Shown piece by piece: positions 1,103 through 21,108 of a stretch of DNA of 42,709 nt. The translations under genes were made by a program, and so were the position numbers. Source of the stretch: Clostridiaceae bacterium (GTDB lineage Bacteria > Bacillota > Clostridia > Oscillospirales > Acutalibacteraceae); contig JAEEYU010000033.1 of the NCBI GenBank assembly GCA_016288315.1, positions 1 to 42,709 of the forward strand, written 5' to 3'. A model generated the notes under the pieces. It made no database searches. It was not told the origin of the DNA and was given only the letters and a program-made list of their open reading frames with translations. Within the stretch, counting starts at the first letter, position 1; each line of letters begins with the position of its first letter.

Positions 1103-1183
1103 CCGTTCGCGCCGCAAAAACGCCCGCTCACGCCGCAGGTCAAAACCTGTGGCTTTTTCCGTGTTATGGTTATGCTGCAGTCG
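1103..1183 (+). promoter_or_regulatory. LytTR-type direct repeat plus activator-dependent promoter (module 1)
   Basis: Half-sites CCGTTCGCGCCG (1103) and CCGCTCACGCCG (1124) start 21 bp apart. TGTTAT lies at 1162-1167, 38 bp from the start of the second half-site, and TGCAGTC follows. The position expected for a -35 box holds GTCAAA, which is not a consensus. The same layout recurs at 8123 and 21,024. Direct half-sites with a 21-bp period are the known binding geometry of LytTR-domain regulators, and one is encoded at 18,990. The start point is inferred. Confidence 0.75.
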
Positions 1184-1205
1184 AGAGAAAAGCAAAGAGG
1201 TTTAT

Positions 1206-1304
1206 ATGAGAAACAAAAAAAAGATTAAAGAATTTGCATACTGGTTCATATTAATTGCGTTGCTTCTGCTTAAAATTGCGACACTGATTTCAAAATCATT
1301 CTGA
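1206..1304 (+). CDS. 32-residue single-pass membrane peptide, first gene of module 1
   Basis: This ORF begins with a strongly basic segment (MRNKKKIKEF) followed by one hydrophobic helix (WFILIALLLLKIATLI) and ends ISKSF. AGAGG lies about 6 bases before the ATG. It occupies the position taken by the 40/41-residue peptides in modules 2 and 3 but does not share their sequence. It is followed after 14 bases by a frameshifted member of that peptide family. Location is probably the cytoplasmic membrane. Function is unknown; small size and a typical SD are the only support for expression. Confidence 0.55.
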   Translation: MRNKKKIKEFAYWFILIALLLLKIATLISKSF

Positions 1305-1318
1305 AAGGAAGAAAAACA

Positions 1319-1445
1319 ATGATTATCTGTTCTTACTGTAGCCGCCATAATGGCAATCGGCACACTCATCTGCACATCCGATGACGGCGATTATGCAGCA
1401 TCCGCTCTGGCACAAATGAATTCAACCCGCAGAAAGTATTGTTAA
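1319..1445 (+). pseudogene. Frameshifted copy of the Cys4/Cys20 small membrane peptide
   Basis: The leader CTGAAAGGAAGAAAAACAATG and the codons for MIICS are almost identical to the intact gene at 8396. The distance from ATG to the conserved GGCAC codons is 40 nt here against 45 nt there, so the frame is lost and translation from the ATG ends after about 21 codons. In the shifted frame the rest of the family pattern is intact: GTLICTSDDGDYAASALAQM followed by NSTRRKYC. It is either a decayed copy or one needing ribosomal frameshifting. A sequencing error is less likely because several bases are missing. Confidence 0.65.
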
Positions 1446-1514
1446 TTAATCTGAAAACCCCGCGACCGGGTTTAGGGCAATTCAGATTACAATAAAATTC
1501 AAGGAGGAATTTCA

Positions 1515-1562
1515 ATGGAAACTATTCTGATAAACGGAGGCATCAAAAATGACAGCGATTAG
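1515..1562 (+). CDS. Possible 15-codon leader peptide overlapping the next gene
   Basis: A perfect AAGGAGG sits 8 bases before ATG 1515, and the frame encodes METILINGGIKNDSD before TAG. This ends 14 bases inside the following gene, whose own start (1549) has GGAGG within this leader. Such an overlap can couple translation of the large protein to the leader. It is also possible that this is just a tandem SD. Low confidence. Confidence 0.25.
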   Translation: METILINGGIKNDSD

Positions 1563-4500
1563 CAAGAAGGCAACAGCGTTTTTACTGGCGGTAATTATGC
1601 TTATGAGCTTGCTGCCGTTGAGCGTTATGGCGGCAGAAGCAACGACGCTGACATTCAAAGTTGAATCAGTTACTGCGATTACTGGCTCGTCGGCACAGGT
1701 GAAGATTGAACTTAAACACAACCCGGGTGTTTCGTCAATCAAGCTCAAAGTATCATACGACAGCAGTCTGGCCCTTACGAGTGTTCAGTATAACCCGGAA
1801 ATGGGCGGGCAGACACTGTCACCGGGTTCTCTGACATCCCCAGCGACACTCATCTGGCTGAATCCTTTTGACAACTTCAGCGGCGATGTAACATTTGCAA
1901 CGCTGACATTCAAAACACCGTCAAACATCACGGAATCATATACCGCAAATGTCAATGTCAGTTATGATGAGGACGATATTTACAATATGCAGGAGAACAA
2001 CGTTCCCTGCGAGGCGGTCAACGGAGGCATTATGGTCTTTGCGGGAGTTCCCGGTGACATCAATGGCGACGGAACCTGCAACAACAAGGACCTTACAAGA
2101 TTTTTCCAGTATCTTGCAAATTGGAATGTCACTGTTAACGAGATGGCAACTGATACAAACGGCGATGGCTCGGTAAATATGAAAGATTTAACCCGACTGT
2201 TCCAGTATCTCGCAAACTGGAATGTTGAAATTCATTACGGTCTCTCCGCGGAGCACACGCATTCAATAACATCGGTTCCGGCAAAAGCCGCCAACTGCAC
2301 CGAAGCAGGCTCCGCTGCATATTACAAATGCACGGGCTGCGGTAAAATGTTCAGGGATTCCGGCTGTCAGGAAGAAATCGGCGAGGATGATATATCTGTT
2401 CCCGCAAAAGGGCACACGGCTATTATTGACGAGGCCGTTCCCGCCACGACAACCTCAACCGGTTTAACAGAAGGCTCACATTGCTCGGTCTGCAACACCG
2501 TTATTGTTGAACAGGAGATTATTCCCAAGCTGGAAACAAAACAGTATGCAATCAACTACAACCTTACAAACGGAGACACCTATCTTGCAACTTTAGAAAT
2601 CAACAACCCGAACCCGGCGTTCTACACATCTGAAGACGGTTTGAAACTTAAAGAGATAAGCGTTCCCGGCTATACATTTGAAGGCTGGTATGACGGTTCA
2701 AGCGACAAGGCAAACAGAATTACAAATATTGCCAAAGGCGAGAAAGAGGAAATCGACCTTTACGCGCACTGGACAGCTAGATCATATAAGATACAGTATG
2801 ATTCCGATTTGATTCCCGTTAATGACGATACATATACAACCAACACGGGAAAGGTTCTCCCCACCCCAAAACTTTCGGGATATACTTTTGTAGGTTGGTC
2901 AGACAGCAAAGGCGATATTATCAGAAGAATTCCGGTCGGAACTACCGGAGACAAAGTATATTCCGCAAACTGGCTGAGCGACAGAAACCAGGCGAGAACA
3001 TACAAAAATGTCGGAGATCCGATTGTAATGGAAGAAGATAACAAAATCCTTTACACATATGAAATAGGTGAAATCAGGAATGTTCCTGTTTCAGTTATAA
3101 AAGACTTCGGAAAGATTGTTGACGGCGGCGTAGCACATGAGGAAACTGTAACACATTCAAAGACAGTAAGCCTTTCCGAAGCGCAGAAATATGAAAAAAC
3201 AGTCGGCAATGCGACAACAGAGAATTACGGTATCACACTTTCAAGCGGTTGGGAGGAAGGTTACGAAATATCCGAAGAATGGTGCCGTGAACACGGAATG
3301 ACCTTAGAGGAAGCGGAGCAATATTGCAGAAACGACACCAACAGTTGGTATGTCTCTAACGGACAAAGCGGTAGCAACAGTTCAACAACATTCAACACTA
3401 CCGATACAACAAACATGACAACCGGCACAAAGAATTCTTCCGGCACATCGGGTGCCAGCACAGAAGTATCAGCCTCCGCAAAACACACGGAAGAAAATCA
3501 CAGTGATTTCGGCTTTGAAGAAAAAATAAAAGCCGGAGGAGGCATTGGACCGGTTTCAGTTGAAGCTTCAGTCGGTGCCAGCCAGTCTTTTGGCTCAAGT
3601 TCGGAGGATGAAACAACAAACTCATCCAAAAACTCTCTGAATTCCAGTGTTACGGTGTCTGACGGAAATTCTCATCAAAGCGGAACTGTTACACATACCG
3701 GCTCAAATTCGACAAGCACAAGCGGTTGGAACACGGAATCCGGACGCAGCGCCAGTCAGTCCGTAACAAGCACGCAGTCCACCGCAAAGAAGCTTTCGGA
3801 AGCAATCAGTCAGAAAACGGGGTACGGCCAATCATATATTAATACCGGTTCAGAATCGGCAAGCCAAGGCTTCAGCGCACAACAAAGTTCTTCTGTCAGC
3901 TATTCAACAGGCATAACTTATTCTACCGAGGAAACAGAAACAATTACTGAAACGATTTCAACATCAAACACAATCGGCGGATATCACCGTTGGGTTTGGG
4001 CAACTACCGCACACGTTTTTCTTGTTGTCGGATACGATATTGCAACATCATCGTATTTTGTGTGCAATTTCTCGATTCTTGATGACAAGCTCAGCAGATT
4101 TGAAGACTATTCATATGATACATCAACTTATGACGATAACCAGACAGGTGTTATCACTTTTGAGATTCCGACGGACATAAAAGAATATGTTAAAGAGCGT
4201 GTAGCCGGCAGTGACGGTCTTCAGTATTCAAGAGATGGAAAAGTAACCGGATACAATGGCAACGACGATTTCGTTATCATCCCGGAATACAAAGTAATTA
4301 ACGGAACGGTTATCAAGGTAACCGGTATTTCCGAAAACGCTTTCAAAAACAAGGTAAAATTACAGAACGGTGAAGATGAGTTACTTGGAATACAACTTTC
4401 TGATTTTATCACCGAGATTCCTGACGGAGCATTTTACGGCTGCAGTTCTTTGAAATATATTGACTTCAATAATGTCAATAAAATAGGAAGCAACGCTTTT

Positions 4501-6435
4501 GCGGGATGCAGCAGTTTAAAGGTAGTCAAACTCAGTGACAATATCACTGTTCTCGGCAGCAACGCTTTTAACGGCATCGATGCGCTGCTTGTAAACGCAG
4601 CCAATAAATCAATTGCCGAATATGCCGTGAATTCGGGAGCCAAGGCAATTGCGTTGGTTGTATCGGAAAAATGCGCCGATCTGAAAAACACAACATTGAC
4701 AATACCGGCGGGAACGGAATATTTCGGATTCTACGGTGCAATTTACTCTCCGAGAACATTCACCAATTTAAAAATAGATTCAAATGCAGAGGAAACACTG
4801 ATTCAGAATGCGGATTTTGTATCAACCGGAAAAGCTCCTGTTAAAATTGCGTCAAGCAATATAATCTGGGCGGAAAGCGATGTCTCGGCATCAAATTTCG
4901 GCATTGTCTTAACTGCGGAACATATTAATCTTTCGGTTTACGGAGAATCAACTGTTTCATCTAATACGAGCAACGCAATTCTAACAAGAGATCTTTCCCT
5001 TGCCGCTATCAATGAAGAACTGTATTCCCAGTTCCATCTTGACGGAAAAATAATGATATGGGGAAATATAATCGAAAACGGTCTGATTTCGTTTATGTCG
5101 GGAAAAGTTGAACATATTTCCGAAACAGAATACACTCGGTATTTAGCCGGCACATACACCCTGACATTTGATGCCAATGGCGGCTCAGTTAGTGAAACTC
5201 AGAAAACCGTATATTACGGCGAAGTAATAGGATCTCTTCCTTCGCCCACACGCACCGGTTACGCCTTTGAAGGCTGGTATACAGCCAAAACTGGAGGAAC
5301 GAAGATAACATCGACAACTGTTTCAACATTTGATGCCAACACGACTGTTTACGCACACTGGAATCCCAACGCATACACCGCAACCTGGAACACCGTAACA
5401 GGATGCACTATTACAGTCAAACGCACAAGCTCACCCTATGCCGGCGCGGCAACGGGCAGCCTTACAAGCGGAGCAACTGTTTATTACGGCGACATTCTGA
5501 GCATTACATACACGGCAAATACAGGCTACACACTCAAGACAAAAGGCAAAACATCAATTACGGTTACCGGCAATGTCACACCATCCGACATTTACGCAAC
5601 AGTAACGGTTAATTCCTATACCGCATCCTGGTCAACGGGCACCGGATACACAATAACAGTCAAACGCACAAGTTCCCCCAAAGCCGGCGCGGCAACGGGC
5701 AACCTTACAAGCGGAGCAACCGTTAATTACAGTGATGTTCTGAGCGTCACATACACAGCAAGCACCGGTTATTCGATTGCAACCCACGGCAAAACATCAA
5801 TTACAGTTACCGGCAATGTCACAGCATCCGATATTTACGCAACGGCAACACCGAACAACTACACCTACACAGTAAAATATGTTTCGGTTAACGGCACAAA
5901 TCTCGGCTCAGATTCGGTTACAAAGGCGTTTGGAACAACCAATACAATTACTCCGCCTGGAAAATACGGATATATTACGCCGCCAGCGCAAACTGTGAAA
6001 TGGGATTCAACATCGAAAACCATCACCTTCAAATATTCCATTGACAACAGCGGAATCGGCGGTAGCAGCAGCAGAGGTTTTGTTGACACGAGCGTAGGCA
6101 CGTGGGCAACCGTTAATATCTCATACTCAATCATCGGCAGAACCGCAAACTCGGTTACAATCAGAGCAACCTGCACGATGATAAAAAATAAAAACATCTA
6201 TACTCCTTATGAATATTCGTTCAGCTGCGCGGGTCAGGATAAAGAGATAATTCCCTTCGGCGCATGGAACAATTACAACAACGCAACGGCTACTCAGACA
6301 ATTGACTTTACAATTTCCGCGGGAACGGGCAGAGGAAGCACAAATGTCTCATGGAGTGTTCCCTGCCGCAACTATTACGGAACCGTTATTGACAACGAAG
6401 GCTATACCGACACGGTTGTCTATCCCGCATATTAA
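1549..6435 (+). CDS. Secreted cohesin-dockerin-InlB-LRR surface protein
   Basis: 1628 residues. A signal peptide covers residues 1 to about 29 (LLPLSVMA/AEA). A type I-like cohesin domain follows (about 33-160), then a dockerin with two calcium-loop repeats (GDINGDGTCNNKDLTRFF at 169, DTNGDGSVNMKDLTRLF at 203). Next come a CxxCGK-type Cys segment (237-310), two InlB/Flg_new-type beta repeats with GYTFEGW and GYTFVGW (331-475), and a Ser/Thr-rich region of about 400 residues (484-880). Three BspA-type LRR units follow (about 890-1040), then another InlB repeat (1203) and two 81-residue repeats from 1275. The end is Tyr-rich, with no LPXTG motif and none of the C-terminal helix seen in neighbours. 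Cohesins bind dockerins, so a chain carrying both could form polymers; that is inference. The gene lies downstream of regulatory module 1 and 31 bp before the next gene. ATG 1549 has GGAGG 8 bases upstream. Confidence 0.85.
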   Translation: MTAISKKATAFLLAVIMLMSLLPLSVMAAEATTLTFKVESVTAITGSSAQVKIELKHNPGVSSIKLKVSYDSSLALTSVQYNPEMGGQTLSPGSLTSPATLIWLNPFDNFSGDVTFATLTFKTPSNITESYTANVNVSYDEDDIYNMQENNVPCEAVNGGIMVFAGVPGDINGDGTCNNKDLTRFFQYLANWNVTVNEMATDTNGDGSVNMKDLTRLFQYLANWNVEIHYGLSAEHTHSITSVPAKAANCTEAGSAAYYKCTGCGKMFRDSGCQEEIGEDDISVPAKGHTAIIDEAVPATTTSTGLTEGSHCSVCNTVIVEQEIIPKLETKQYAINYNLTNGDTYLATLEINNPNPAFYTSEDGLKLKEISVPGYTFEGWYDGSSDKANRITNIAKGEKEEIDLYAHWTARSYKIQYDSDLIPVNDDTYTTNTGKVLPTPKLSGYTFVGWSDSKGDIIRRIPVGTTGDKVYSANWLSDRNQARTYKNVGDPIVMEEDNKILYTYEIGEIRNVPVSVIKDFGKIVDGGVAHEETVTHSKTVSLSEAQKYEKTVGNATTENYGITLSSGWEEGYEISEEWCREHGMTLEEAEQYCRNDTNSWYVSNGQSGSNSSTTFNTTDTTNMTTGTKNSSGTSGASTEVSASAKHTEENHSDFGFEEKIKAGGGIGPVSVEASVGASQSFGSSSEDETTNSSKNSLNSSVTVSDGNSHQSGTVTHTGSNSTSTSGWNTESGRSASQSVTSTQSTAKKLSEAISQKTGYGQSYINTGSESASQGFSAQQSSSVSYSTGITYSTEETETITETISTSNTIGGYHRWVWATTAHVFLVVGYDIATSSYFVCNFSILDDKLSRFEDYSYDTSTYDDNQTGVITFEIPTDIKEYVKERVAGSDGLQYSRDGKVTGYNGNDDFVIIPEYKVINGTVIKVTGISENAFKNKVKLQNGEDELLGIQLSDFITEIPDGAFYGCSSLKYIDFNNVNKIGSNAFAGCSSLKVVKLSDNITVLGSNAFNGIDALLVNAANKSIAEYAVNSGAKAIALVVSEKCADLKNTTLTIPAGTEYFGFYGAIYSPRTFTNLKIDSNAEETLIQNADFVSTGKAPVKIASSNIIWAESDVSASNFGIVLTAEHINLSVYGESTVSSNTSNAILTRDLSLAAINEELYSQFHLDGKIMIWGNIIENGLISFMSGKVEHISETEYTRYLAGTYTLTFDANGGSVSETQKTVYYGEVIGSLPSPTRTGYAFEGWYTAKTGGTKITSTTVSTFDANTTVYAHWNPNAYTATWNTVTGCTITVKRTSSPYAGAATGSLTSGATVYYGDILSITYTANTGYTLKTKGKTSITVTGNVTPSDIYATVTVNSYTASWSTGTGYTITVKRTSSPKAGAATGNLTSGATVNYSDVLSVTYTASTGYSIATHGKTSITVTGNVTASDIYATATPNNYTYTVKYVSVNGTNLGSDSVTKAFGTTNTITPPGKYGYITPPAQTVKWDSTSKTITFKYSIDNSGIGGSSSRGFVDTSVGTWATVNISYSIIGRTANSVTIRATCTMIKNKNIYTPYEYSFSCAGQDKEIIPFGAWNNYNNATATQTIDFTISAGTGRGSTNVSWSVPCRNYYGTVIDNEGYTDTVVYPAY
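5371..5856 (+). repeat. Two tandem 243-bp units (81 residues each)
   Basis: Units start at 5371 and 5614 and share long identical stretches such as GTCAAACGCACAAG and GGCAAAACATCAATTAC. The encoded repeats contain TVKRTSSP.AGAATG and GKTSITVTGNVT. A third unit begins in phase at 5857 but diverges at once. The close DNA match points to recent duplication. Confidence 0.8.
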
Positions 6436-6466: not shown

Positions 6467-8041
6467 ATGAAAAAAGCATTTTTGATTTTTCTTACGGTAT
6501 GTTCCGTATTTCTGTTCGGCGTTACGGCATTTGCGGCCGGATCACCGGAATTTGCAGTATCTTCCGCAAACGCTGCTCCTGGAAGCAGCGTGGAAGTTAC
6601 GGTATCGGTTAAAAACAATCCCGGTCTGACATCAATGAAGTTCAATGTTTCATTCGATTCGGTTCTTCAACTGGAAAAAGTTGAATACAACACAGCCTTT
6701 AAAGGCCAGACCATGCAGCCGAATCAGATGACAAGCCCCGTTACGCTTATCTGGCTGAGCCCCTTTGAAAACTGCGGACAGAACGGAGTGTTTGCTACCT
6801 TGACTTTCAAAGTCAGTTCTTCGGCAAAAAACGGCGACACGGCGGACATTGTTCTTGCCTACAACCCGAACGATGTTTATAACCTCAACGAAGAAAACGT
6901 CGGCTTTGCGGTTACAAACGGAAAAGTTACGGTCGAGAGCGGAAACGCTGCGCCTGCCGCAGGTGTTACACTGAACAAATCTGCCGTAACCGTAAAAGTC
7001 GGCGAAACGGAAACCCTGTCGGCAACGGTCAAGCCCGACAATGCCGGAAACAAAAATGTTGAATGGTCATCCGAAAACACAACAGTAGCCTCGGTAAGCA
7101 ACGGCAAAATTACCGGAAACAAAAGAGGCACAACAACAGTTAACGCCACAACCGAAGACGGCGGATATACCGCGGCGTGCTCGGTAACGGTAGTATGCGA
7201 CCATAAAAACAAAACCAAAATTCCGGCAAAAGATTCAACCTGCACGGAGCAGGGGTGGGACGAGTATTATGTTTGCGACGACTGCGGGCAAACACTTTCT
7301 TCTGACGGCACCGGGGAGGTTGCCGCTCGCCCCTTTCGCTGCCTCGCAGAACACACAGGAGGCACGGCAACATGTAAATGCAAAGCGGTTTGCAGTGTGT
7401 GCGGCAGTCATTACGGCAATTATGCTCCTCATAATTATAATTCTGAAATTGAAAATGAAAAGGCAATGAAAAAGCAAGGCACCTGCCGCGGGAAAACTGT
7501 ATATTACTACTCCTGCTCCGTATGCGGTGAGTGTGAAAAAAATGACGCACATACCTTTGAAGGATCTTTTGGCGAACACCGGTTCACAAACTATGTTTAC
7601 AACAATGACGAAACAGCCGAACACGATGGCACCGAGACCGCGAAATGTGATTATTGCAACGCAACAGACACCCGAGCAAGAACCATTAATATATATATTC
7701 GCGCACGCTCAACAGCAAATGTTGCCTATGAAGCAAATGTAACAATCACGGCAGAGGGCTGCAATGTGCCGGCAGGATGCAGGCTTGTTATTTGCGACGG
7801 CGACAGAACAGTTGCAACAGGCAGCCGTGAGAAAGTCAGTTTCAATGCAGGCAATATGACAAAAACCAAAAGTTTTACCGTAAAAATCATTACTTCAACG
7901 GGTTCGGTAAGAAAAAACAGCGCGGGAGCCGAAATAAGTCAGAAAATCAAAGTCAATGTTTTCGACGGCTTTTTTGCCAGATTGTTTGCCCTCATCAGAA
8001 AACTTATGGGAACCACTCCGAATATAGAAATTAAACCTTAA
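6467..8041 (+). CDS. Secreted cohesin and Big2 domain protein with C-terminal helix
   Basis: 524 residues. Signal peptide 1-24 (FLFGVTAFAA). A cohesin domain at about 27-163 is clearly paralogous to that of the upstream protein (SPVTLIWLSPFE here, SPATLIWLNPFD there). A Big2 immunoglobulin-like domain follows at about 168-245 (LNKSAVTVKVGETETLSATV), then a long region with Cys pairs of CxxCG type (246-405) and a beta-rich domain. Near the end is a short hydrophobic/basic helix, FFARLFALIRKLMG. It starts 31 bp after the preceding gene with CGGAGAGG before ATG, so it is in the same operon, and a strong hairpin terminator follows. It has no dockerin, so it may offer its cohesin as an extracellular anchor for dockerin-bearing partners. 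That role is inferred. Confidence 0.85.
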   Translation: MKKAFLIFLTVCSVFLFGVTAFAAGSPEFAVSSANAAPGSSVEVTVSVKNNPGLTSMKFNVSFDSVLQLEKVEYNTAFKGQTMQPNQMTSPVTLIWLSPFENCGQNGVFATLTFKVSSSAKNGDTADIVLAYNPNDVYNLNEENVGFAVTNGKVTVESGNAAPAAGVTLNKSAVTVKVGETETLSATVKPDNAGNKNVEWSSENTTVASVSNGKITGNKRGTTTVNATTEDGGYTAACSVTVVCDHKNKTKIPAKDSTCTEQGWDEYYVCDDCGQTLSSDGTGEVAARPFRCLAEHTGGTATCKCKAVCSVCGSHYGNYAPHNYNSEIENEKAMKKQGTCRGKTVYYYSCSVCGECEKNDAHTFEGSFGEHRFTNYVYNNDETAEHDGTETAKCDYCNATDTRARTINIYIRARSTANVAYEANVTITAEGCNVPAGCRLVICDGDRTVATGSREKVSFNAGNMTKTKSFTVKIITSTGSVRKNSAGAEISQKIKVNVFDGFFARLFALIRKLMGTTPNIEIKP

Positions 8042-8122: not shown

Positions 8123-8205
8123 CCGCTCGCGCCGTAAGATCGTCCGCTCACGCCATGAACGGCATTTCTCCGTTTTTTCGTGTTATTGTTTAATTGCAGT
8201 CAGGG
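8123..8205 (+). promoter_or_regulatory. LytTR-type direct repeat plus promoter (module 2)
   Basis: Half-sites CCGCTCGCGCCG (8123) and CCGCTCACGCCA (8144) start 21 bp apart. TGTTAT lies at 8181, 37 bp from the start of the second half-site, followed by TTGCAGTCAGGGAAAA. The -35 position reads AACGGC, so an activator is probably needed. The leader box matches module 3 over at least 14 bases. Confidence 0.78.
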
Positions 8206-8242: not shown

Positions 8243-8365
8243 ATGTTACTTATTTGCTTACCGGTTATTATTGCAACGGCGGTTGCAGGCGCTTTTATCT
8301 GCGCATCGGAAGACAATGACAGAGCGGCTCTGGTTCTTGCAGAAATGAACTCGGCAAAACAGTAA
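8243..8365 (+). CDS. 40-residue Cys5/Cys20 small membrane peptide
   Basis: The peptide starts MLLICLPVIIATAVAGAFIC and continues with an acidic-to-neutral tail ending LAEMNSAKQ. One hydrophobic helix covers residues 2-20 with no basic residue before it. GGAGG lies 8 bases before the ATG. It matches the peptide at 21,156 through the tail (CTSDDNDKAA there, CASEDNDRAA here, both ending MNSAK). Longer in-frame starts exist upstream but lack an SD. It is the first gene after regulatory module 2. Function is unknown: it could be a small membrane regulator, a secreted signal or an antimicrobial peptide. Confidence 0.7.
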   Translation: MLLICLPVIIATAVAGAFICASEDNDRAALVLAEMNSAKQ

Positions 8366-8395: not shown

Positions 8396-8563
8396 ATGAT
8401 TATCTGTTCAATTATCACAGCGGCCGTAGTGATTACTGTCGGCACAATTATCTGCACATCGGGCGGGAGCAGCTTTGCAACATCCGTTCCTGCAAGATAT
8501 GATTATGAAAAACATTTACGCGAATCCGACGCAATCAGAAAAATGATAAACAAGCACGCTTAA
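8396..8563 (+). CDS. 55-residue Cys4/Cys20 small membrane peptide
   Basis: The peptide starts MIICSIITAAVVITVGTIIC and continues TSGG, then a charged tail with KHLRESDAIRKMINKHA. The helix and Cys pattern match the family (Cys at 4 and 20), but the tail is longer and different. AAGGAAG precedes the ATG, identical in context to the frameshifted copy at 1319. It follows the 40-residue peptide by 30 bp and is followed by a terminator-like hairpin, so module 2 appears to drive a two-peptide operon. Confidence 0.68.
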   Translation: MIICSIITAAVVITVGTIICTSGGSSFATSVPARYDYEKHLRESDAIRKMINKHA

Positions 8564-8576: not shown

Positions 8577-8634
8577 AAAGCAGTCCGCAAGAGCAGGAAC
8601 TTATAAAAATCCTGCTGCAAAAGCGGGCTGCTTT
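8577..8634 (+). terminator. Nested hairpin, probable terminator of the peptide operon
   Basis: AAAGCAGTCCGC pairs with GCGGGCTGCTTT, and an inner stem AGCAGGA/TCCTGCT lies between the arms. The short T-run is interrupted. Transcripts from module 2 may stop here, or partly read through into the giant gene, which also has its own promoter. Confidence 0.6.
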
Positions 8635-8694: not shown

Positions 8695-8724
8695 TTGAAA
8701 ATTAAGAAATATATATGATATACT
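8695..8724 (+). promoter_or_regulatory. Vegetative promoter candidate for the giant LRR gene
   Basis: TTGAAA, an 18-bp spacer and TATACT lie about 100 bp before the ATG at 8823. No LytTR half-site pair is present here, so this gene may be expressed independently of modules 1-3. Confidence 0.5.
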
Positions 8725-8822
8725 GTAAAATGGATTTTTATATAGCAAATAACGGCAAATTGCATTTTTGAAAAAGACTTTTTCGGGTTGACTGACTTGA
8801 TTTGAATACGGGGGTTGTCGGG

Positions 8823-11800: not shown

Positions 11801-14800
11801 CAACGGTTTAACCGATGTTTATTATAAAGGCACCGAAGAACAGTGGAACGAAATTGAATCCGGTGACAACAATGAAAATTTGCTGAACGCAAATATAACA
11901 TACAACTTTGTTCCCGGCGAATATACACTCAATATTGGTTATCGGATGGTTGACGGTAACGATGCAGTTAAGCCCGCAGATTACAGTGCGTCGTTTGCTC
12001 TCGACGAAAGCTACAGTGTTACCTCTCCTGCTGTTACGGGATATACTCCGGATATTGCTGCCGTTGAAGGCAGGATGGACAGTCTTGACGGCAAAACAGA
12101 AACAGTAAACTATATACCCGATATTTATTATGAAAACAATCTGTTTGATGTTTCAGAGTGGTATAACAACCTAAAAACAAAGCCAAATAACGGCACAAAC
12201 AGTCCGGATGCGAAAGTAAGCCTTTCCGGAGAAAAAGTTGTTTTTGAAACAGGTGAAAATGTTCAAAACCCTGATTGCTATACTTTATGGAGCGCAGGCA
12301 ACGGTGACACCTCTTATTATAAAATTCCGTGTGAACCGAACACAGAATATACATTTCTTTACAATGTTGAACTTGAAGGTGAAGGCATAAGTCAAATTAT
12401 TTTATTTGAATATGCAGAGAATTATACCGATCCAATAGCAGGTGAAATAGGTTGGCATGTTTTGTGCCCGGACTATCAATCTGATGCCGGCACTTATGTA
12501 AAAACCTGCACAACAGCCGAAAACGCAGCATATATCGGTGTTCGTGTCGGCACTGCAGGAGTTGCAGGCACAAAGGCAGCTTATTCAAATATAATGTTGC
12601 TTAAAACAAGCGATATAAAGCCATACACCATCACATACAGATACGGAGAAGTCAACGGCAATGCCGTTTATAAGACAATAACTCAGAATTTCGGCGCGGC
12701 GGTCACGCCTCCCGATGACCCTGAGTTCAGCGGTTATACCTTTGTCGGTTGGGATTCCGAAATTCCCGGAACAATGCCCGCAGAAAATCTTACCATTAAT
12801 GCGCTTTGGATAAGCAGCACGGGAACTTATGGTCCGCTAACATACAGAATCGACAACAACAAAGAAGTTACCATTACCGATTGTGATAAAGAAGCAACCG
12901 GCGAACTTGTCATACCCGAAACAATTGATGGTTATCCGGTGACAAGCATTGGCGGAAATGCATTCCGTTATTGCAGACTTACAAATATTGAAATTTCAAA
13001 CAGCATAAAACGAATAGATGATTACGCCTTCTTTAATTGTAACGGTTTTACAAATATAGATATTCCCTATGGCGTTGAAACAATCGGTAATTCCGCTTTT
13101 GCAGCTTGTTTTTGGTTAACAGACATTAATATTCCGAATAGTGTAATAAGCATCGGCAGTTCTGCTTTTGAGAGATGTTCCAAGTTAAAAAGTGTGGAAA
13201 TCCCCAACAGTGTATCAAGTATCGGCAGTTCTGCTTTCAGAGATTGCACAGGACTTACAAGCATAGAAATTCCCGACAGTGTAACAAGCATAAGCAATTC
13301 TGCGTTCAGCGGATGCACAGGACTTACAAGCATAGAAATTCCCAACAACGTAACAAGCATCGGCAATTCTGCGTTCAGCGGATGCTCCGGGCTTGAAAGT
13401 ATAACGGTGTCGCAGGGCAATTCAATATATCATTCAACAAATAACTGTCTCATTGAGACAGTAAGCAGCACTTTAATTCTCGGATGTAAAAACAGCGTTA
13501 TTCCCGCAGACGGAAGTGTAATGAGCATAGGAGATTCTGCGTTTTACAACTGTTCAGGGCTTACAAGCATAAATATTCCCGACAGCGTAACAAGTATCGG
13601 CGATGCTGCTTTTAAAGATTGCACAAGACCTACAAACGCAACAATACCCAGCAGTGTAACAAGCATCGGCAGTTCTGCGTTCAGCGGATGCACAGGACTT
13701 ACAAGCATAGAAATTCCGGACAGTGTAACAAGTATCGGCAGTTCTGCATTCAGTGGATGCACCAGATTGACTGAAATAACCATTCCCGGAAGTGTAAAAA
13801 ACATAGAGTCACGCATGTTTGAAGACTGCACGGGACTTGAAAGCGTTACAATCGGCAACGGTGTTGAAAGCTTGGGTGATCTGGCGTTTTTATACTGCCT
13901 GAATCTGAAAGAAATCGAATTACCCGAAAGTGTAACAAGCATAGGGTGGCTTGCTTTCTATGTGTGCAGAGACCTTGAAAAAATAACTGTTTCACAAGGT
14001 AATCCGGTTTATCATTCGGCAGACAATTGCGTAATTGAAACAGCAACTGATACTTTGACTCTCGGATGCAAAACAAGTGTTATTCCCGCCGACGGAAGTG
14101 TTACAAAAATAGGTCATTATGCGTTTGCCGGCTGTATAGACCTTAAAAGCATAACCATTCCCGTAAGCGTAACCGACATTGGTGTTCAAGCATTTGAATT
14201 ATGTGTAAGTTTGAAAGATGTAACGATTTTGGAAAATGTTGAAACAATAGGCGAAGGTGCCTTTTATTACGTTGGTAACATATCTTATTCGGAAAATATG
14301 ACGGCAGAAGGCTCTCCCTGGGGTGCCAGATGTGTTAACGGATTTGTTGACGACAATCTGATTTATTCCGATGAAAGCCGAACGGAATTGTGCGCTTGCT
14401 CTACAACGGCAAAAGGTGAAATCACTATTCCCAGTAGTGTTACGAATATAGGCGACTATGCGTTTGTTTTTTGCGAGGGAATTACAGATGTTACAATCGG
14501 CAGCGGCGTTGAAAGCATAGGTGAATCGGCGTTCGCCTTTTGCTCCGGTCTTGCGAGCGTAACCGTTCCCGTTGGCGTAAAAAATATCGGTGCATCCGCG
14601 TTTACCGAATGTTTCAATCTTACCGATGTAAATTACACCGGCACTGAAGAGCAGTGGAATGAAATCAGCATTGCAAGCGACAACGAACCGTTGCTGAACG
14701 CAAACATAAAATATTATGACGGGTCGCTCACAATTAATTATCTTATTGAAGGCAGCGACGAGCCCCTTCGTGAAGCGTATAAAGACAGCTCACTTTCTTA

Positions 14801-16568
14801 CGGTGATTCTTACAGCGTGGTTTCGCCTGAGGTTCCCGGCTATCACCTTGTTGATGACGGGCAGACAACAGTAAACGGTGTTATGGACTTTGACCCGGTG
14901 AGCGTCAATGTATATTATGCCCCGGGCGATTACCCGCTGACAATTAACTATGTTATGAGCGACGGCAATAATGCCGCCAAGCCCGAAAACCATACGGAAA
15001 ACATAACCTTCAACACCGCATACAGCTTTCCCTCGCCTGCCGTTACGGGTTATACACCCGATGTTGATGTTGTTACGGGCACAATGGACGCCGAAGGTAA
15101 AACCGTTACGGTTACATATTCGCCGAACATATATAGCATTAAATACTATGTTGACGGTAAGGTTTATTTAAGTGTTAAAGTCGCATTCGGCAGCGAAGTT
15201 ACCGCACCGGAAAACCCGCAAAAATTAAGTTATCTTTTTGCCGGCTGGACTCCGGAAGTTCCTGCGACAATGCCCGCAAAAAATCTCAGCTTCAATGCTT
15301 TATGGACCGATGTTTACGGCATAGGCGAAGAAACATACAGTTTCAAGAACTTTTCAAATAAAGACATAAAATGCTCACACAGGAATTATAACGGGCACTG
15401 TTTCGGAATGGCAGCAACAAGCTCCGGCTATTATATCGGCAAGCTTGACAAAGCTGATATCGGCGGGGAAAACAAAACCCTTTATTCGCTTTCAATCAAC
15501 AATAATAAAGTTAGGGAGCCGATTTGCACTTATCTTTTAATACAAGGTCCCGTAGGTCCGTTTGGAACCAAAGGCGCAGAGCGTGAAGCTATAGTTGCGG
15601 GCGGCAGCATCGATCTGAAAAAAGAAAAAAACACATCATCCGACTGGAACGCCTGTGTAAACTACATTAAAAATCACAAATACGACTATAAAGGTTCGCT
15701 CAATGTCGGAGTATGGTATAAAGACAGAGGAGGTCATGCGGTTAATTTCCTGTATTACAAAGAGGTCAACAATCAGCAGAGAATCTACGTTTACGACAGC
15801 AACTATCCCGGTTACGAAATGTATTATTACAAAAAAGGTTCATATATTTATGAAAACTCCGACGATCCGCGATACAAATACGGCGACAGCCCTGCAATAA
15901 AAGGAATTGACCTGATGGATGTTGCTACATATTTTGATTATGCAAAAAGTGTTTCTTTGCTTGATTACATTTTTACATCAATAAAATCAGTTGAAATTGA
16001 AAACGCCGAATACAGCTATATGAAATGTGACGGCGAATTAAGCGACTATGTTATTTTTAAGATTCCCGAAGGTGTCGAAGAAGTTAAAATTACACCGTTG
16101 GAAGATAACGCATCCTTCGAATATATGGGCGTTGAATACACGTTCGGAAAAGTTGATGAAGACACTTACGGTGTTCTTGAAGTTTTAACGGAAAGCGCCG
16201 AAGAGGGCAAAAAGACCGAATTTGTTATTGAAAATGCTCCCGCACAGGTGCAGATTAAAAATTATGTTCCCGAACGCACAGACGATTACCGGACATCAAT
16301 AACCTTCACTGCGACAATCACTGACCTCAATGATGATGTAACCGTTCACTGGTTCATTAACGGCAAGGATTCAGGAACAGGCAAAACGTTCAAGGTCGAA
16401 GAAGCAAAAGCCGATTACACTGTTCAGGCAAAACTCATAGACAAGTCAGGCAAAACCACGTCTGAAAGTGAAAAGGAAACGGTGAAAATAAAGCACGGAT
16501 TCTTTGACATTATCATCTGGTTCTTCAGGCACCTCTTCAACCCCGGCGCATATGATAAAAAACAATAA
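8823..16568 (+). CDS. Giant BspA-like LRR surface protein with papain-like protease domain
   Basis: About 2581 residues from ATG 8823; an in-frame TTG at 8802 adds 7 residues but lacks a clear SD. After a signal peptide (MIKKFRGIVSLLLCVVLLFG) come a WTLSDDGVLTISGTG start motif (about 54) and BspA-type LRR_5 units (AF.GC..L..I.IP.SVTSIG) in blocks at about 100-1023 and 1337-1966. Six copies of a NPVYHS.GNCIIET insertion interrupt the blocks. MucBP-like segments lie at about 1033 and 1970, a beta-rich segment at about 1106-1260, and Flg_new repeats with YTFVGW and YLFAGW at about 1268 and 2104. Residues about 2170-2380 look like a papain/C39-type cysteine peptidase: GHCFGMA (Cys2193), GGHAVNF (His2305), YVYDSNYPG (Asp2325). 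The end has a hydrophobic helix, FFDIIIWFFRHLFNPG. Likely exported and surface-associated. Substrate unknown; protease activity is predicted from the Cys/His/Asp order only. Confidence 0.85.
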   Translation: MIKKFRGIVSLLLCVVLLFGNVAVGGEGFADFVASVYDALSIRASAVESGTCGDNLTWTLSDDGVLTISGTGDMKDFTYNSSDAWRQYKTLIKELIIGQEITSIGSYAFNSCLALTNVEFPDSIVSIGLCAFESCERLTNIVIPDSVTSIGGNAFGSCYNLEYITIGDGITSIDGGVIGGCSIFSIDGNLKSITIGKGVASIGEGIISQCCNLESITVSPDNPVYHSAGNCIIETASKTLISGCKNSVIPSDGSVTSIGNFAFILCENLENIIIPSSVTSIGDSAFFECYALKSITFPESVTSIGDYAFLECYALESITIYDSITSIGEKAFLKCNKLTDVYYTGAEEQWNEINISEGNEKLLSADIHYVIEPLSVLEYEINDGKVTITGCNQNANGEIVIPETIEGYPVTSIGKNAFQNCSELTDLIIPASVTSIDTNPFTGCTGLESITVDENNTVYHSSGNCLIDTESKTLVAGCKNSVIPADGSVTSIGNAAFGGCSGLAELTVPPCVSKIGDGAFSLCSGLNKLVVYSPLTGTGAFNGCSGLKTAGPIGGGYDFEFGWFDTIPPYAFYGCSGLERIILPNSIGEIGYSAFSYCSSLESIKIPFFVTTIYGGSDYLEDLFGEIGSPGDSPGKGTFYGCTSLTNVIIGKNVTTIGPKAFFNCPNLTNVYYLGSADEWREISIVNNNGYNDSLVNANIIYNSPSSLAFLVYSINNNEVTITGIDIRESNFALAGIMPDSTEFVIPDSIEGYPVTSIRFDAFNNCTELTAISIPGSVNDIEPGAFSGCSSLESLIVSNDNPVYHSDGNCIIKTDSKTLIAGCKNSNIPDDGSVTSIENRAFYGCKNLENIEIPEGIETIGAFAFYGCEKLKNVNIPDSVSHIALGAFSGCSGIDSLSVSPDNPVYHSSGNCIIRTQTGSLALGCKNSVIPTDGSVQTVGIYAFVGCSELEHIAIPDGVTSIGDYAFSGCSGLSFVVIPDSVTTIEHNAFSGCNGLTDVYYKGTEEQWNEIESGDNNENLLNANITYNFVPGEYTLNIGYRMVDGNDAVKPADYSASFALDESYSVTSPAVTGYTPDIAAVEGRMDSLDGKTETVNYIPDIYYENNLFDVSEWYNNLKTKPNNGTNSPDAKVSLSGEKVVFETGENVQNPDCYTLWSAGNGDTSYYKIPCEPNTEYTFLYNVELEGEGISQIILFEYAENYTDPIAGEIGWHVLCPDYQSDAGTYVKTCTTAENAAYIGVRVGTAGVAGTKAAYSNIMLLKTSDIKPYTITYRYGEVNGNAVYKTITQNFGAAVTPPDDPEFSGYTFVGWDSEIPGTMPAENLTINALWISSTGTYGPLTYRIDNNKEVTITDCDKEATGELVIPETIDGYPVTSIGGNAFRYCRLTNIEISNSIKRIDDYAFFNCNGFTNIDIPYGVETIGNSAFAACFWLTDINIPNSVISIGSSAFERCSKLKSVEIPNSVSSIGSSAFRDCTGLTSIEIPDSVTSISNSAFSGCTGLTSIEIPNNVTSIGNSAFSGCSGLESITVSQGNSIYHSTNNCLIETVSSTLILGCKNSVIPADGSVMSIGDSAFYNCSGLTSINIPDSVTSIGDAAFKDCTRPTNATIPSSVTSIGSSAFSGCTGLTSIEIPDSVTSIGSSAFSGCTRLTEITIPGSVKNIESRMFEDCTGLESVTIGNGVESLGDLAFLYCLNLKEIELPESVTSIGWLAFYVCRDLEKITVSQGNPVYHSADNCVIETATDTLTLGCKTSVIPADGSVTKIGHYAFAGCIDLKSITIPVSVTDIGVQAFELCVSLKDVTILENVETIGEGAFYYVGNISYSENMTAEGSPWGARCVNGFVDDNLIYSDESRTELCACSTTAKGEITIPSSVTNIGDYAFVFCEGITDVTIGSGVESIGESAFAFCSGLASVTVPVGVKNIGASAFTECFNLTDVNYTGTEEQWNEISIASDNEPLLNANIKYYDGSLTINYLIEGSDEPLREAYKDSSLSYGDSYSVVSPEVPGYHLVDDGQTTVNGVMDFDPVSVNVYYAPGDYPLTINYVMSDGNNAAKPENHTENITFNTAYSFPSPAVTGYTPDVDVVTGTMDAEGKTVTVTYSPNIYSIKYYVDGKVYLSVKVAFGSEVTAPENPQKLSYLFAGWTPEVPATMPAKNLSFNALWTDVYGIGEETYSFKNFSNKDIKCSHRNYNGHCFGMAATSSGYYIGKLDKADIGGENKTLYSLSINNNKVREPICTYLLIQGPVGPFGTKGAEREAIVAGGSIDLKKEKNTSSDWNACVNYIKNHKYDYKGSLNVGVWYKDRGGHAVNFLYYKEVNNQQRIYVYDSNYPGYEMYYYKKGSYIYENSDDPRYKYGDSPAIKGIDLMDVATYFDYAKSVSLLDYIFTSIKSVEIENAEYSYMKCDGELSDYVIFKIPEGVEEVKITPLEDNASFEYMGVEYTFGKVDEDTYGVLEVLTESAEEGKKTEFVIENAPAQVQIKNYVPERTDDYRTSITFTATITDLNDDVTVHWFINGKDSGTGKTFKVEEAKADYTVQAKLIDKSGKTTSESEKETVKIKHGFFDIIIWFFRHLFNPGAYDKKQ
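13113..13763 (+). repeat. Nearly identical 69-bp LRR repeat units
   Basis: Successive 23-residue LRR units start every 69 bp (for example 13,182, 13,251, 13,320, then 13,557 and 13,695). They share runs such as CTTACAAGCATAGAAATTCC and TCTGCGTTCAGCGGATGC. Most other LRR units in the gene are much more diverged, so this block has expanded or been homogenised recently. A YHS-type insertion (13,389-13,556) divides it. Confidence 0.75.
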
Positions 16569-16571
16569 ATA

Positions 16572-16605: not shown

Positions 16606-16623
16606 ATATGACAGAAGGTGTTT

Positions 16624-16962: not shown

Positions 16963-17030
16963 AGTAATCCTCCTGAATATTTTAAATTGTATTATAACAG
17001 ACCGCAAAAAAACCGCAATTCACGCCGCGG

Positions 17031-18038: not shown

Positions 18039-18081
18039 TGAATCACCGCACAAGAAAATTAATTAATCTAATTTCATTTTA

Positions 18082-18846: not shown

Positions 18847-18889
18847 TTCGTTTCACCTGTCAGGGATTTAATTAAACATACTTTTTTTT

Positions 18890-18917
18890 AGTATATCATA
18901 TATTTTTTCATTTGCAA
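18890..18917 (-). promoter_or_regulatory. Promoter candidate for the minus-strand secreted-protein operon
   Basis: On the minus strand TTGCAA, a 16-bp spacer and TATACT lie about 45-70 bp upstream of the ATG at 18,846. It lacks the paired half-sites of modules 1-3. Confidence 0.5.
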
Positions 18918-18928
18918 ACAAAAAAATA

Positions 18929-18957
18929 TTGAATTATATTATTTTCGAATATATAAT
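18929..18957 (+). promoter_or_regulatory. Promoter of the two-component system
   Basis: TTGAAT, a 17-bp spacer and TATAAT lie 33 bp before the response regulator ATG. This is a good vegetative promoter with no LytTR half-site pair, so autoregulation through modules 1-3 is not evident. Confidence 0.65.
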
Positions 18958-18989
18958 TAATATGATTACTCATTTAAACGGGGTGTGTT

Positions 18990-19682
18990 ATGAAAATCGC
19001 GATTTGTGACGATGAAAACATATGGCTCGATTCCGTTGTAACCGTTCTTGAAGATTACTCAATTGAGAGAAAGCTTGACATAGAATATCAATCTTTCAAC
19101 AGTTATCTGCTTCTTGAACCGAAAACGGATGAGTTTGACATTTTCATAATGGATTACCAGACTCCCGAAATCGACGGTCTTACTTTCGCGAAAAAAATCC
19201 GCGAAAAATACGGCGACAAAAAAACGATTATCTTCCTGACATCTTACCAGGAGATTGTTTATGACACCTTCGCCGTGCGCGTGCACAGGTTTCTGATAAA
19301 GCCGGTAGATAAAGCCAAGATGTTCGAAGCGCTGGACGCGGTCATCGGCACCAGCAACCTGAACAGCACGCTTTCCGTCAAGAGCGACGGCAAGGTTGAA
19401 ATTATACCCATACGGGATATTCTCTACATTGAGGTAGCCGACAAGGAGTGCTATATCTGCCTGAGTGAAGACCAGATAGTCTGTCACAAACCCATTTCAC
19501 AGCTTGAAGACGAGCTCGTTTCACGCGGCTTTTTCAGAACTCACAGGACCTACCTCGTGAATATGGGCAACATACGCAGTTTTGACGCGAAAACAATAGA
19601 ATTCAGCAACGGCGAAACAATTCCGATGAGCAAACGCCGCTATAAAGAATTCTGCAGCGCTTATCTCGATTTTAACGGATAA
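18990..19682 (+). CDS. LytTR-family response regulator (AgrA/LytR type)
   Basis: 230 residues. A receiver domain covers residues 1 to about 120: acidic residues D7 and D8, phospho-acceptor D55 in FIMDYQTPEIDG, T in FLTSYQE, and K in RFLIKPVDK. A LytTR DNA-binding domain follows (about 130-228) with DILYIEVADKECYI, FFRTHRTYLVNMGNI and PMSKRRYKEF. Such regulators bind direct repeats about 21 bp apart and activate weak promoters. Three such sites occur in this window (1103, 8123, 21,024), so they are the obvious targets. The kinase gene follows after 15 bp. Transcribed from the promoter at 18,929. Confidence 0.93.
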   Translation: MKIAICDDENIWLDSVVTVLEDYSIERKLDIEYQSFNSYLLLEPKTDEFDIFIMDYQTPEIDGLTFAKKIREKYGDKKTIIFLTSYQEIVYDTFAVRVHRFLIKPVDKAKMFEALDAVIGTSNLNSTLSVKSDGKVEIIPIRDILYIEVADKECYICLSEDQIVCHKPISQLEDELVSRGFFRTHRTYLVNMGNIRSFDAKTIEFSNGETIPMSKRRYKEFCSAYLDFNG

Positions 19683-19697
19683 AAACGGGGGAAGGGA

Positions 19698-20966
19698 ATG
19701 CTTACATACATTCTTCATTTACTGTTGTTAACCACTTCGGTGTCGATGATTCTTGTTTCGCTTTATGTGTTTTTCGGTTATGAGGCGAGAAAAAACAAGG
19801 TGCCGTTCATTGCCGGGTCGGCGGTTTCGGCTGTGGTGGCTGTTCTTCTGATTTATTTCACAAAGGGCAACGAAGACGCCGAATTTATGTTTGACCTTTG
19901 GCAGATTGCGACAAACATGTTCCTGCCTTATCTGCTGTTTAAATCCGGCAGAAAAGCAACCTTCGCGCTATACGGTTTTGTTCTGCCCTCTTTTTCGGAT
20001 ATAATTGCCTCGCTGATAAGTTCAAAAATCGGCGATATTTCCGAAAACGAGACTATTTTGATGTATATTGCCATTTTTGTTGCAACAACATTATTGATAA
20101 TAATTTTACGCAAAGCTCTGCCGATAAAATTCACGCCGGAATTCCTTGAAACAATTCCCGTCTATGTTTATGTAATAATTTTCATTTATCTTTTTTCCAA
20201 TTACTACAGCATTGAACTGGCGCAGGACGCTTCGTTCCATGTGGAAGTCGCGAACATTCTCAAGGTTGTTTCGGCAATCCTCGTAACCGTTTCGGTGGTT
20301 GTGATTGTAATACGCTACATAAATGTTCTGAATCTTCAGAAAGAAGCCGAAAAACAGCTTGAAGCCGAAATTCATCATTATGAAGATATGATGCGCAAGA
20401 ACAGCGATATCCGTTCATTCAGGCATGATTACAAAAACAACCTTTTCTCGCTCAACGCCCTTATGACCGACGGCAGAACAGATGAAGCGCAGAAATATAT
20501 CTCCGAACTCGCGGGTGAACTGGAAAACACTTCCAACAATTACCAGACGGGCAACTACCTTGCTGACGCCATTATTTCGGAGAAATCGGAAAACGCTTCA
20601 AAGAGCGGCACAAGAATCAGCTTTTCGGGCACAATTCCGAAAGACTGGGTCAAAAACAACGACCTGTGCGCGATTCTTTCCAATTCGCTTGACAACGCTG
20701 TCAGGGCATGCGAACCGATTGAAAACGCGGTTGTCATGGTTAGTTCAAAAGAAACGCCGAACAGCGTTGTGATTTCTGTCGCCAACCCCGTAACAAAACG
20801 GGTTGAAATCAAGAACAACCGGATAAAAACCACTAAATCGGATTCACAGAACCACGGAATCGGTCTTGCAAATGTTGAGAAAACAGCGAAGAAGTATAAC
20901 GGATACATGAAACTCTCCTGCACCGACGCCGAATTCGAACTCAAAGTCGGTTTGATAAACAACTGA
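19698..20966 (+). CDS. AgrC-like GHKL sensor histidine kinase
   Basis: 422 residues. The N-terminal half (1 to about 212) has about six hydrophobic segments, as in AgrC-type peptide sensors. A coiled segment (LQKEAEKQLEAEIHHYEDMM) leads to the H-box with His243 in SFRHDYKNNLFSL. The ATPase part has an N-box NSLDNAVRACE and a G-box DSQNHGIGLANV, typical of the HATPase_c_5 group. It should phosphorylate the LytTR regulator encoded 15 bp upstream. No agrB/agrD-like pair is in the window, so the stimulus is unknown; the small membrane peptides of modules 1-3 are candidates only. A terminator follows. Confidence 0.92.
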   Translation: MLTYILHLLLLTTSVSMILVSLYVFFGYEARKNKVPFIAGSAVSAVVAVLLIYFTKGNEDAEFMFDLWQIATNMFLPYLLFKSGRKATFALYGFVLPSFSDIIASLISSKIGDISENETILMYIAIFVATTLLIIILRKALPIKFTPEFLETIPVYVYVIIFIYLFSNYYSIELAQDASFHVEVANILKVVSAILVTVSVVVIVIRYINVLNLQKEAEKQLEAEIHHYEDMMRKNSDIRSFRHDYKNNLFSLNALMTDGRTDEAQKYISELAGELENTSNNYQTGNYLADAIISEKSENASKSGTRISFSGTIPKDWVKNNDLCAILSNSLDNAVRACEPIENAVVMVSSKETPNSVVISVANPVTKRVEIKNNRIKTTKSDSQNHGIGLANVEKTAKKYNGYMKLSCTDAEFELKVGLINN

Positions 20967-20987
20967 TAACAATTATAAATAATCTCC

Positions 20988-21023
20988 AAACAGTCCTGCA
21001 CCCTTTCGGGCAGGGCTGTTTTT
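20988..21023 (+). terminator. Terminator of the two-component operon
   Basis: AAACAGTCCTGC pairs with GCAGGGCTGTTT and ends in a run of T residues. The last T is immediately followed by the first half-site of module 3. Confidence 0.85.
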
Positions 21024-21108
21024 CCGTTCACGCAGAAAAACCGACCGTTCGCGCAGCAGTCGTCCGGCAGGTCCGGTTTATATGTTATTATTCAGTTGCA
21101 GTCAGGGA
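21024..21108 (+). promoter_or_regulatory. LytTR-type direct repeat plus promoter (module 3)
   Basis: Half-sites CCGTTCACGCAG (21,024) and CCGTTCGCGCAG (21,045) start 21 bp apart. TGTTAT lies at 21,083, 38 bp from the start of the second half-site, and TTGCAGTCAGGGAAAA follows. It lies directly behind the kinase gene, which ties the regulator to its probable targets. Confidence 0.8.

Follow-up and report, generated by a model that had tools for sequence, protein, structure and literature searches.

Which regulator acts on three copies of one promoter module, and which genes these copies express, are the questions raised by contig JAEEYU010000033.1 of a Clostridiaceae bacterium (assembly GCA_016288315.1). 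The whole stretch analysed, 42,709 nucleotides and hereafter the window, is contig C45 of the genome G000 (2.15 Mb in 74 contigs, 78% complete) and carries, directly before the third module, the genes of a LytTR response regulator and a GHKL sensor kinase. Sequence comparison indicates that the three modules are very probably activator-dependent promoters of a single regulon under this neighbouring kinase/regulator pair. Most modules lead first to a family of micropeptides of about 40 amino acids (aa), which was absent from an earlier, sequence-only reading of this DNA.

Three promoter modules and a LytTR regulator pair

The elements concerned are the following:
1103..1133, plus strand: module 1, two half-sites (1103-1112 and 1124-1133), found by pattern
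1162..1170, plus strand: extended -10 of module 1, TGTTATGGT, read from the sequence and compared with the relatives' modules
1176-1182, plus strand: TGCAGTC of module 1, near the expected transcription start, read from the sequence
8123..8153, plus strand: module 2, two half-sites (8123-8132 and 8144-8153), found by pattern
8181..8189, plus strand: extended -10 of module 2, TGTTATTGT, read from the sequence
8194-8201, plus strand: TTGCAGTC of module 2, read from the sequence
18990..19682, plus strand: LytTR response regulator, 230 aa (Pfam Response_reg 1.1e-12 and LytTR 1.4e-21, both above cut-off)
19698..20966, plus strand: GHKL sensor kinase, 422 aa, AgrC-like architecture (HATPase_c_5 8.1e-24, FRHDYKNNL)
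21024..21054, plus strand: module 3, two half-sites (21024-21033 and 21045-21054), found by pattern
21083..21091, plus strand: extended -10 of module 3, TGTTATTAT, read from the sequence
21096-21103, plus strand: TTGCAGTC of module 3, read from the sequence

As the sequence-only reading had claimed, half-sites of the form CCGYTCRCGC occur in pairs that start exactly 21 bp apart (1103/1124, 8123/8144 and 21024/21045), TGTTAT follows 38, 37 and 38 bp past the start of the second half-site in modules 1, 2 and 3, and (T)TGCAGTC comes after it. With 3 mismatches allowed, the window held three matches to the pattern, all with 0 mismatches, against 0.02 expected, and 0 of 100 shuffles reached three; this shuffle test is circular, the pattern having been derived from the same three sites, and a matrix was therefore built from the relatives' modules only. 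It comprised two parts, 38 bases across the repeats and 20 around the -10 element, was trained on 11 modules from the genomes G007 (7), G039 (2) and G041 (2) with the window sites excluded, and was run over both strands of the window, with 40 first-order Markov copies as background. The three modules took ranks 1 to 3, with 68.0 bits for module 2, 54.9 for module 3 and 52.0 for module 1; the next-best score in the window was 10.9 bits, and the maximum across the Markov copies was 11.5.

The consensus of the 11 relatives' modules is CCG.TC.CGCCG.AAAA....CCGTTCGCG over the repeats and TTT..GTG.TATT.T before the start, the latter containing the extended -10 element TGnTATTRT. A -10 hexamer has an A at its second position, which TATTRT possesses and TGTTAT lacks; TGTTAT, although correctly positioned by the sequence-only reading, is therefore not the hexamer itself, and the conserved TGTTATTRT is better read as TGn followed by TATTRT. 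Variants of this element are TGTTATAAT at G041:C133 and TGCTATAAT at one site of a sister genus, g18. No -35 box was seen at the window modules, in agreement with the earlier claim; a -35 element would be expected to begin some 17 bp past the start of the second half-site, a position that the proximal half-site abuts, which would suit an activator replacing -35 contacts. Between the conserved half-sites and the extended -10, most module DNA diverges. The T-rich stretch ahead of the -10, which scores as a hairpin plus T-run in modules 1 and 2, was not counted as a terminator, since several relatives are only T-rich there or show neither feature.

Two direct repeats of about 10 bp with a 21-bp period, upstream of a -10 element, place the modules by their geometry among LytTR direct-repeat promoters. 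The general LytTR consensus is [TA][AC][CA]GTTN[AG][TG]. The half-site is GC-rich, as had been pointed out, and yet less foreign than claimed, its GTT core fitting this consensus; CCGTTCAT and CCGTTCAC appear to match it well, and the window's CCGTTCGCG would be a GC-rich drift thereof. The 21-bp period, taken in the sequence-only reading as the known LytTR geometry, has its counterpart in a published system, the 10-11-10 arrangement of the modules being equal to that of the SilA element, at whose promoters one base more or less between the repeats abolishes activity (PMC2766830).

The placement of a LytTR regulator and its kinase directly upstream of module 3 was likewise borne out, the two genes being 15 bp apart and module 3 starting 58 bp past the end of the kinase gene. 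The kinase shows, by eye, a hydrophobic N-terminal half and FRHDYKNNL, whose FRHDY we take to be the H-box, together with a C-terminal GHKL ATPase, as in AgrC/ComD-type kinases. The regulator carries FFRTHRT, which agrees with the LytTR motif FhRhHRS (PMC4227749) except for T in place of the last S. The curated NCBIfam models were not reached by either protein (AgrA, 52.5 bits against a cut-off of 400; AgrC, 38 against 500).

Recurrence in the genus and a family of micropeptides

The genus was represented by 45 genomes, G000 included, and the family by 300, 5 of these from the genus; the control for pattern scans was the reversed pattern. The scan of genome and relatives proposed in the sequence-only reading proved unspecific with the half-site pair alone, which gave 4 places against 15 in the control in the own genome (3 mismatches) and 32 against 40 in the genus genomes (2 mismatches), and which was rejected as a genome probe because more places came from the control. 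Outside the window, the own genome held one more half-site-pair match, with 3 mismatches. Together with the extended -10 the pattern became specific: with the spacing fixed at 37 bp, so that modules 1 and 3 (38 bp) were missed, it occurred at 12 places in 4 of the 45 genomes, namely G007 (7), G039 (2), G041 (2) and G000 (1, module 2), and at 0 in the control. At the level of sequence, these scans establish the modules and their recurrence. The enrichment that had been predicted for relatives carrying the regulator was found in G007, where a 71% identical orthologue is accompanied by the seven modules, one of them just past the orthologue's kinase gene and thus in the same placement as module 3.

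Behind the window modules lie the following features:
1206..1304, plus strand: 32-aa hydrophobic open reading frame (ORF), first behind module 1, outside the new family
1319..1445, plus strand: frame-disrupted micropeptide copy (hidden Markov model, HMM, match in the frame of 1326-1433, E 8.5e-15)
1549..6435, plus strand: 1628-aa protein with dockerin, BspA-type leucine-rich repeats (LRR) and Listeria-Bacteroides repeats
6467..8041, plus strand: 524-aa cohesin and Big_2 protein
8243..8365, plus strand: 40-aa micropeptide of the new family (HMM; ratio of nonsynonymous to synonymous substitution rates, dN/dS, 0.46 against the 21156 copy)
8396..8563, plus strand: 55-aa micropeptide, the more divergent of the two copies behind module 2 (HMM, E 1.4e-4 and 1.7e-8)
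8611..8627, plus strand: terminator-like hairpin after the module 2 peptides (consensus match only)
8802..16568, plus strand: 2588-aa BspA-type LRR protein
21156..21281, plus strand: 41-aa micropeptide of the new family, behind module 3 (HMM)
21349..22605, plus strand: 418-aa protein, signal-like N-terminus by eye, no Pfam match
22640..23008, plus strand: 122-aa protein, signal-like N-terminus by eye, no Pfam match

The copy at 1319-1445, with ORFs from 1319 and 1350 in different frames, looks broken in comparison with the intact copies at 8243 and 21156. The gene at 8802 perhaps has its own promoter (TTGAAA-18-TATACT, 8695-8724), a consensus match only. Four of the seven G007 modules lead to HMM-matched peptides, one to a 67-aa ORF that starts similarly but is not matched by the HMM, and two to neither; among the proteins encoded behind the peptides of this genome are CHAP/ricin-lectin, List_Bact-repeat and subtilase proteins. 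On G007:C5, two weaker sites lie ahead of an LRR protein and of the fifth HMM-matched peptide of that genome (30.6 bits). No convincing first gene was identified behind the G039 modules and two G041 modules.

The peptide HMM found 12 copies in 5 of the 45 genus genomes (G007, 5; G000, 4; G036, G038 and G041, one each) and, among the 300 family genomes, matched only G000 and G007. Five peptides searched against each of Pfam and NCBIfam at E up to 1 gave sub-threshold matches only, with no curated family above cut-off, and the family is apparently undescribed. An alignment of ten copies shows a hydrophobic stretch, G..(I/V)C, D and AA to be common to all, with M, S and L nearly invariant; the build is a hydrophobic stretch of approximately 16-18 residues, a conserved Cys and then a D-rich tail. 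By eye, the peptides have no basic N-terminus and no lipobox, and no GG leader is present in the ten aligned copies, the copy at 8396-8563 having its GG in the tail (CTSGGSS) rather than in a recognisable leader. Codon positions 1, 2 and 3 differ at 0.40, 0.33 and 0.62, and dN/dS was 0.15-0.46 in 8 chosen of 55 peptide pairs; from these values the peptides look translated and constrained, and their coding nature appears secure. A module site, scoring 30.6-71.0 bits, lies 107-273 bp upstream of 11 of 12 scored copies, two of which share module 2. The 12 scored copies count the 67-aa ORF and omit G036, whose contig begins 48 bp before the peptide, and a copy's own site was removed from the matrix where it had been included. 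The leaders of the peptides at G041:C133 (L096) and G038:C244 (L095) are long and untranslated and share stretches such as GTATAAACGGG and TATAAAACGGGGGAT, despite G038 being module-less.

Pairs of LytTR regulators and GHKL kinases commonly sense peptides. Quorum sensing, with the micropeptides as secreted, processed pheromones that are sensed by the kinase and autoinduced through the modules, would fit this background, the conserved Cys with a hydrophilic tail, and the gene order, which resembles that of known autoinducing loci in that a peptide gene is the first after the kinase-adjacent module. We nevertheless regard it as unlikely. Among 12 genomes, AgrB (PF04647) scored above cut-off only in G016 and was found neither in G000 (78% complete) nor in G007 (97%), on which ground Agr-type processing was set aside; the G007 module beside the kinase of the 71% regulator has no peptide; the five peptide copies of G007 are divergent; and the family was not found in the genomes G001 and G016 or in g18, which have related pairs. 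The AgrB result in G000 and G007, together with these related pairs lacking the family, argues for an output of the regulon over a conserved signal. Whether the peptides are regulon-encoded single-span membrane proteins with an accessory or feedback role is an evenly balanced proposal, which we rank above a role as pheromone precursor, itself somewhat unlikely.

Related regulators and their half-sites

Relatives of the regulator comprise the 71% orthologue and a 57% paralogue in G007, proteins of 50% identity in G001 and 46% in G016 (both outside the 300-genome family set), of 40-44% in g18 and of 38% in G294. A 60% fragment of 81 residues occurs in G006, where a repeat scan gave no convincing match. 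Only 2 of 9 inner branches of the regulator tree were well supported (the G047 row being disregarded), and the grouping therefore rests on identities, which, for the three groups with known half-sites, are 52-84% inside a group and 38-49% from one group to another (G294 left out).

In G001 and G016, pairs of CGTTCATACC (half-site read by eye) with a 21-bp period come immediately after the kinase gene. A second, more divergent CGTTCATACC-like pair of G016 precedes a 44-aa peptide unrelated to the micropeptide family; this hydrophobic peptide (L092, about 15725-15960), with a Cys ending its hydrophobic part, is alike in place and build and belongs to another family. Pairs of TTTCTGTACC were found at 9 places in 4 of the 300 family genomes, all of g18 (G061, 3; G190, 3; G332, 2; G271, 1), against 1 in the control. 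By eye, seven of the nine stand before genes for proteins whose N-termini look like signals (LRR, VWA and collagen-like/cohesin proteins among them), and another leads to a protein with FHA and FtsK/SpoIIIE domains. The latter, of 1522 aa, lies behind a g18-type module and divergent from the regulator in G332 (L098, 9955-14665), and resembles EssC, the motor of type VII secretion.

An offset test on 20 of 80 named regulator loci, in which collapsed matches to direct repeats plus promoter were counted at offsets 15 to 27, gave 26 matches at offset 21 against 0-7 at each of the 12 other offsets. About 15 of the 26 had a recognisable half-site by eye, 5 of the 26 lay in the known G007, G190 and G061 loci, and the rest looked like chance. 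New offset-21 loci include those of Ruminococcus albus AR67 and R. flavefaciens ND2009, with GTTYACTC(C)-like half-sites; in the former, a cultured strain, two 21-bp repeats whose half-sites are GTTCACTC/TTTACTCC lie near a regulator homologue of 40% identity. The regulon link, which the sequence-only reading had marked as inferred, has thereby gained support, both from the G007 orthologue with its seven modules and from related regulators flanked by promoters of 21-bp period. These comparisons support the view that the half-site follows the regulator group, each of the three groups having its own half-site with the 21-bp period kept.

BspA-type LRR_5 proteins flank the regulator in 8 of 9 loci (the window, the G007 paralogue, G001, G016, G332, G061, G190 and G294). 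Genes of BspA-type surface proteins adjoin related regulators in three clades.

Several observations weigh against a single regulon under the pair. The matrix scan of the window found no module upstream of the regulator gene itself, and the own genome has at least one other LytTR-type regulator (G000:C21, 25% identity). Modules are present in G039 and G041, and peptides in G036, G038 and G041, with no close regulator orthologue found in these incomplete genomes (best match: none in G039 and G036, 29% in G041, 30% in G038). The G038 peptide has no module (score -15.7), two of the seven G007 modules, one of them beside the 71% regulator, lack a family peptide, and no LRR was found among 4 scanned proteins beside this 71% copy. 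In g18, the site of G271 goes with a regulator match of only 29%, and one of the nine sites leads to a protein that by eye looks cytoplasmic and AMP-binding-like. The second LytTR-type protein of G000, like the modules and peptides in genomes without a close orthologue, could mean that another LytTR regulator or factor binds the modules and that the neighbouring pair is a bystander. This is improbable, given that related regulators of three groups adjoin modules, each group with its own half-site, that module 3 and its G007 counterpart come straight after the kinase gene, and that three of the four genomes without an orthologue are only 79-87% complete (the fourth, G036, is 96% complete).

It is distinctly improbable that the peptide ORFs act as mere leaders, translated only to tune the surface-protein gene that follows. 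A peptide ORF does come first in 2 of the 3 window transcripts and in 4 of 7 in G007 (5 of 7 counting the 67-aa ORF), but module 2 leads to two peptides and then to the terminator-like hairpin, the next gene after the G007 C63 peptide is on the opposite strand, no gene is evident by eye in about 380 bases past the G038 peptide, and the dN/dS of the peptides is well under 1. That the repeats are non-regulatory remnants of duplicated surface-gene DNA is hardly credible, for although the peptide genes are paralogues and the units were thus probably duplicated, conservation falls on the half-sites and the extended -10, with most of the DNA between them diverging, and other genera show the 21-bp period again with half-sites of their own.

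Under control of a single regulon by the neighbouring pair, we infer regulator binding, phosphorylation, activation and start sites as follows. The GHKL kinase (19698-20966) would phosphorylate the LytTR regulator (18990-19682), a dimer of which would bind the two 10-bp half-sites, two helical turns apart and ending about where a -35 element would begin. The bound dimer would recruit RNA polymerase to an extended -10 (TGn-TATTRT) without a -35 of its own, and transcription would start near TTGCAGTC. The transcripts would carry micropeptides and then secreted surface proteins, which are cohesin/dockerin and BspA-type LRR proteins in the window and CHAP and subtilase proteins in G007. The best supported arrangement is a phosphorylated regulator dimer that sits on the 10-11-10 element, for whose geometry SilA is the precedent, and activates an extended -10 promoter.

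Some further loci were noted in passing. As a family probe with 2 mismatches, the CGTTCATACC pair gave 11 places in 9 of the 300 genomes against 9 in the control, which is noise level. Three of the 11 lie in G202, of another genus. Two of these (L140 near 1974, L141 near 3001) have a similarly spaced TATAAT, stand before genes that look unrelated by eye, and are perhaps modules of another LytTR system using the same code. In Oscillospiraceae Hs463_bin100 (L160), three near-identical 21-bp modules with CCGTGCTATAAT (minus strand, near 6988, 5306 and 2837) each lie ahead of an ORF whose leader resembles those of double-glycine bacteriocins (...ELLAVDGG... or similar). In Clostridiales Firm_05 (L154), three tandem 21-bp modules lie close to a LytTR regulator (minus strand, near 7959, 7680 and 7383), and short ORFs share NGRILGF(Y/H)L(W/R)KI, possibly a pheromone array.

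The named relatives retrieved through the regulator are mostly uncultured gut Clostridia, from which we infer that the host of the window is a gut or rumen bacterium. A plasmid origin of the regulator region was rejected, the plasmid collection holding no near match for 18990-21300, and seven regulators on viral contigs had an identity of only 26-29%. A serine recombinase N-terminal domain (Resolvase; 3-347, minus strand) is cut by the window edge, so that the cluster may abut a mobile element, and a bacterial small signal recognition particle RNA (Rfam RF00169; 36952-37050, minus strand) lies outside the module cluster.

Significance and comparison with known systems

Beside the regulator and its relatives, large surface proteins of the BspA-type LRR and cohesin/dockerin kinds are found repeatedly. 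The broader picture, which we offer tentatively and with less than even confidence, would be one of surface-remodelling signalling in uncultured gut Oscillospiraceae, in which a LytTR pair activates dispersed operons that each combine a lineage-specific membrane micropeptide with a large adhesin, scaffold or hydrolase, the code having drifted between clades (CCGTTCGCG, CGTTCATACC, TTTCTGTACC, GTTYACTCC) with the 21-bp geometry and the -10 placement fixed, and the micropeptides being a signal or a new membrane-embedded feedback element. With operator, promoter and regulator pair defined, the regulon can be searched for and tested, and related regulators with differing half-sites and one geometry constitute a natural experiment on the evolution of LytTR specificity. 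The micropeptide family is unnamed and of a size easily missed by gene callers. The literature search found no description of the regulon or of the peptide family, and no paper on LytTR control of BspA-type LRR or cohesin/dockerin surface proteins.

The modules are similar to the VirR boxes of Clostridium perfringens, where a pair of imperfect direct repeats precedes the promoter of a secreted protein, but differ from them in box sequence and targets. With AgrA/AgrC (PMC4227749) and with ComE/ComD, the pair shares the combination of a receiver-LytTR protein and a GHKL kinase, the motif FhRhHR(S/T) and repeats upstream of the promoter. Whereas the agr promoters are described (PMC4227749) as having poorly spaced -35 and -10 elements, no -35 box was seen at the window modules, and the missed AgrA and AgrC cut-offs and the lack of a detected AgrB in G000 or G007 likewise set the present system apart from Agr.

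HdrRM and BrsRM (PMC6193735) resemble it in having spacers of 11-13 bp, repeats of variable sequence and conserved spacing and, in some cases, an extended -10 (TGCTATAGT for HdrR). There, the LytTR regulator is paired with an inhibitory membrane protein and activates its own operon, whereas here the partner is a kinase and the regulator gene has no module. The closest geometry is that of P3 and P4 of SilA/SilB in Streptococcus pyogenes, where a LytTR regulator and kinase go with 10-bp direct repeats and an 11-bp spacer (PMC2766830); the targets of SilA/SilB belong to quorum sensing with the pheromone SilCR, whereas the window combines GC-rich CCGYTCRCGC half-sites with surface-protein and micropeptide targets.

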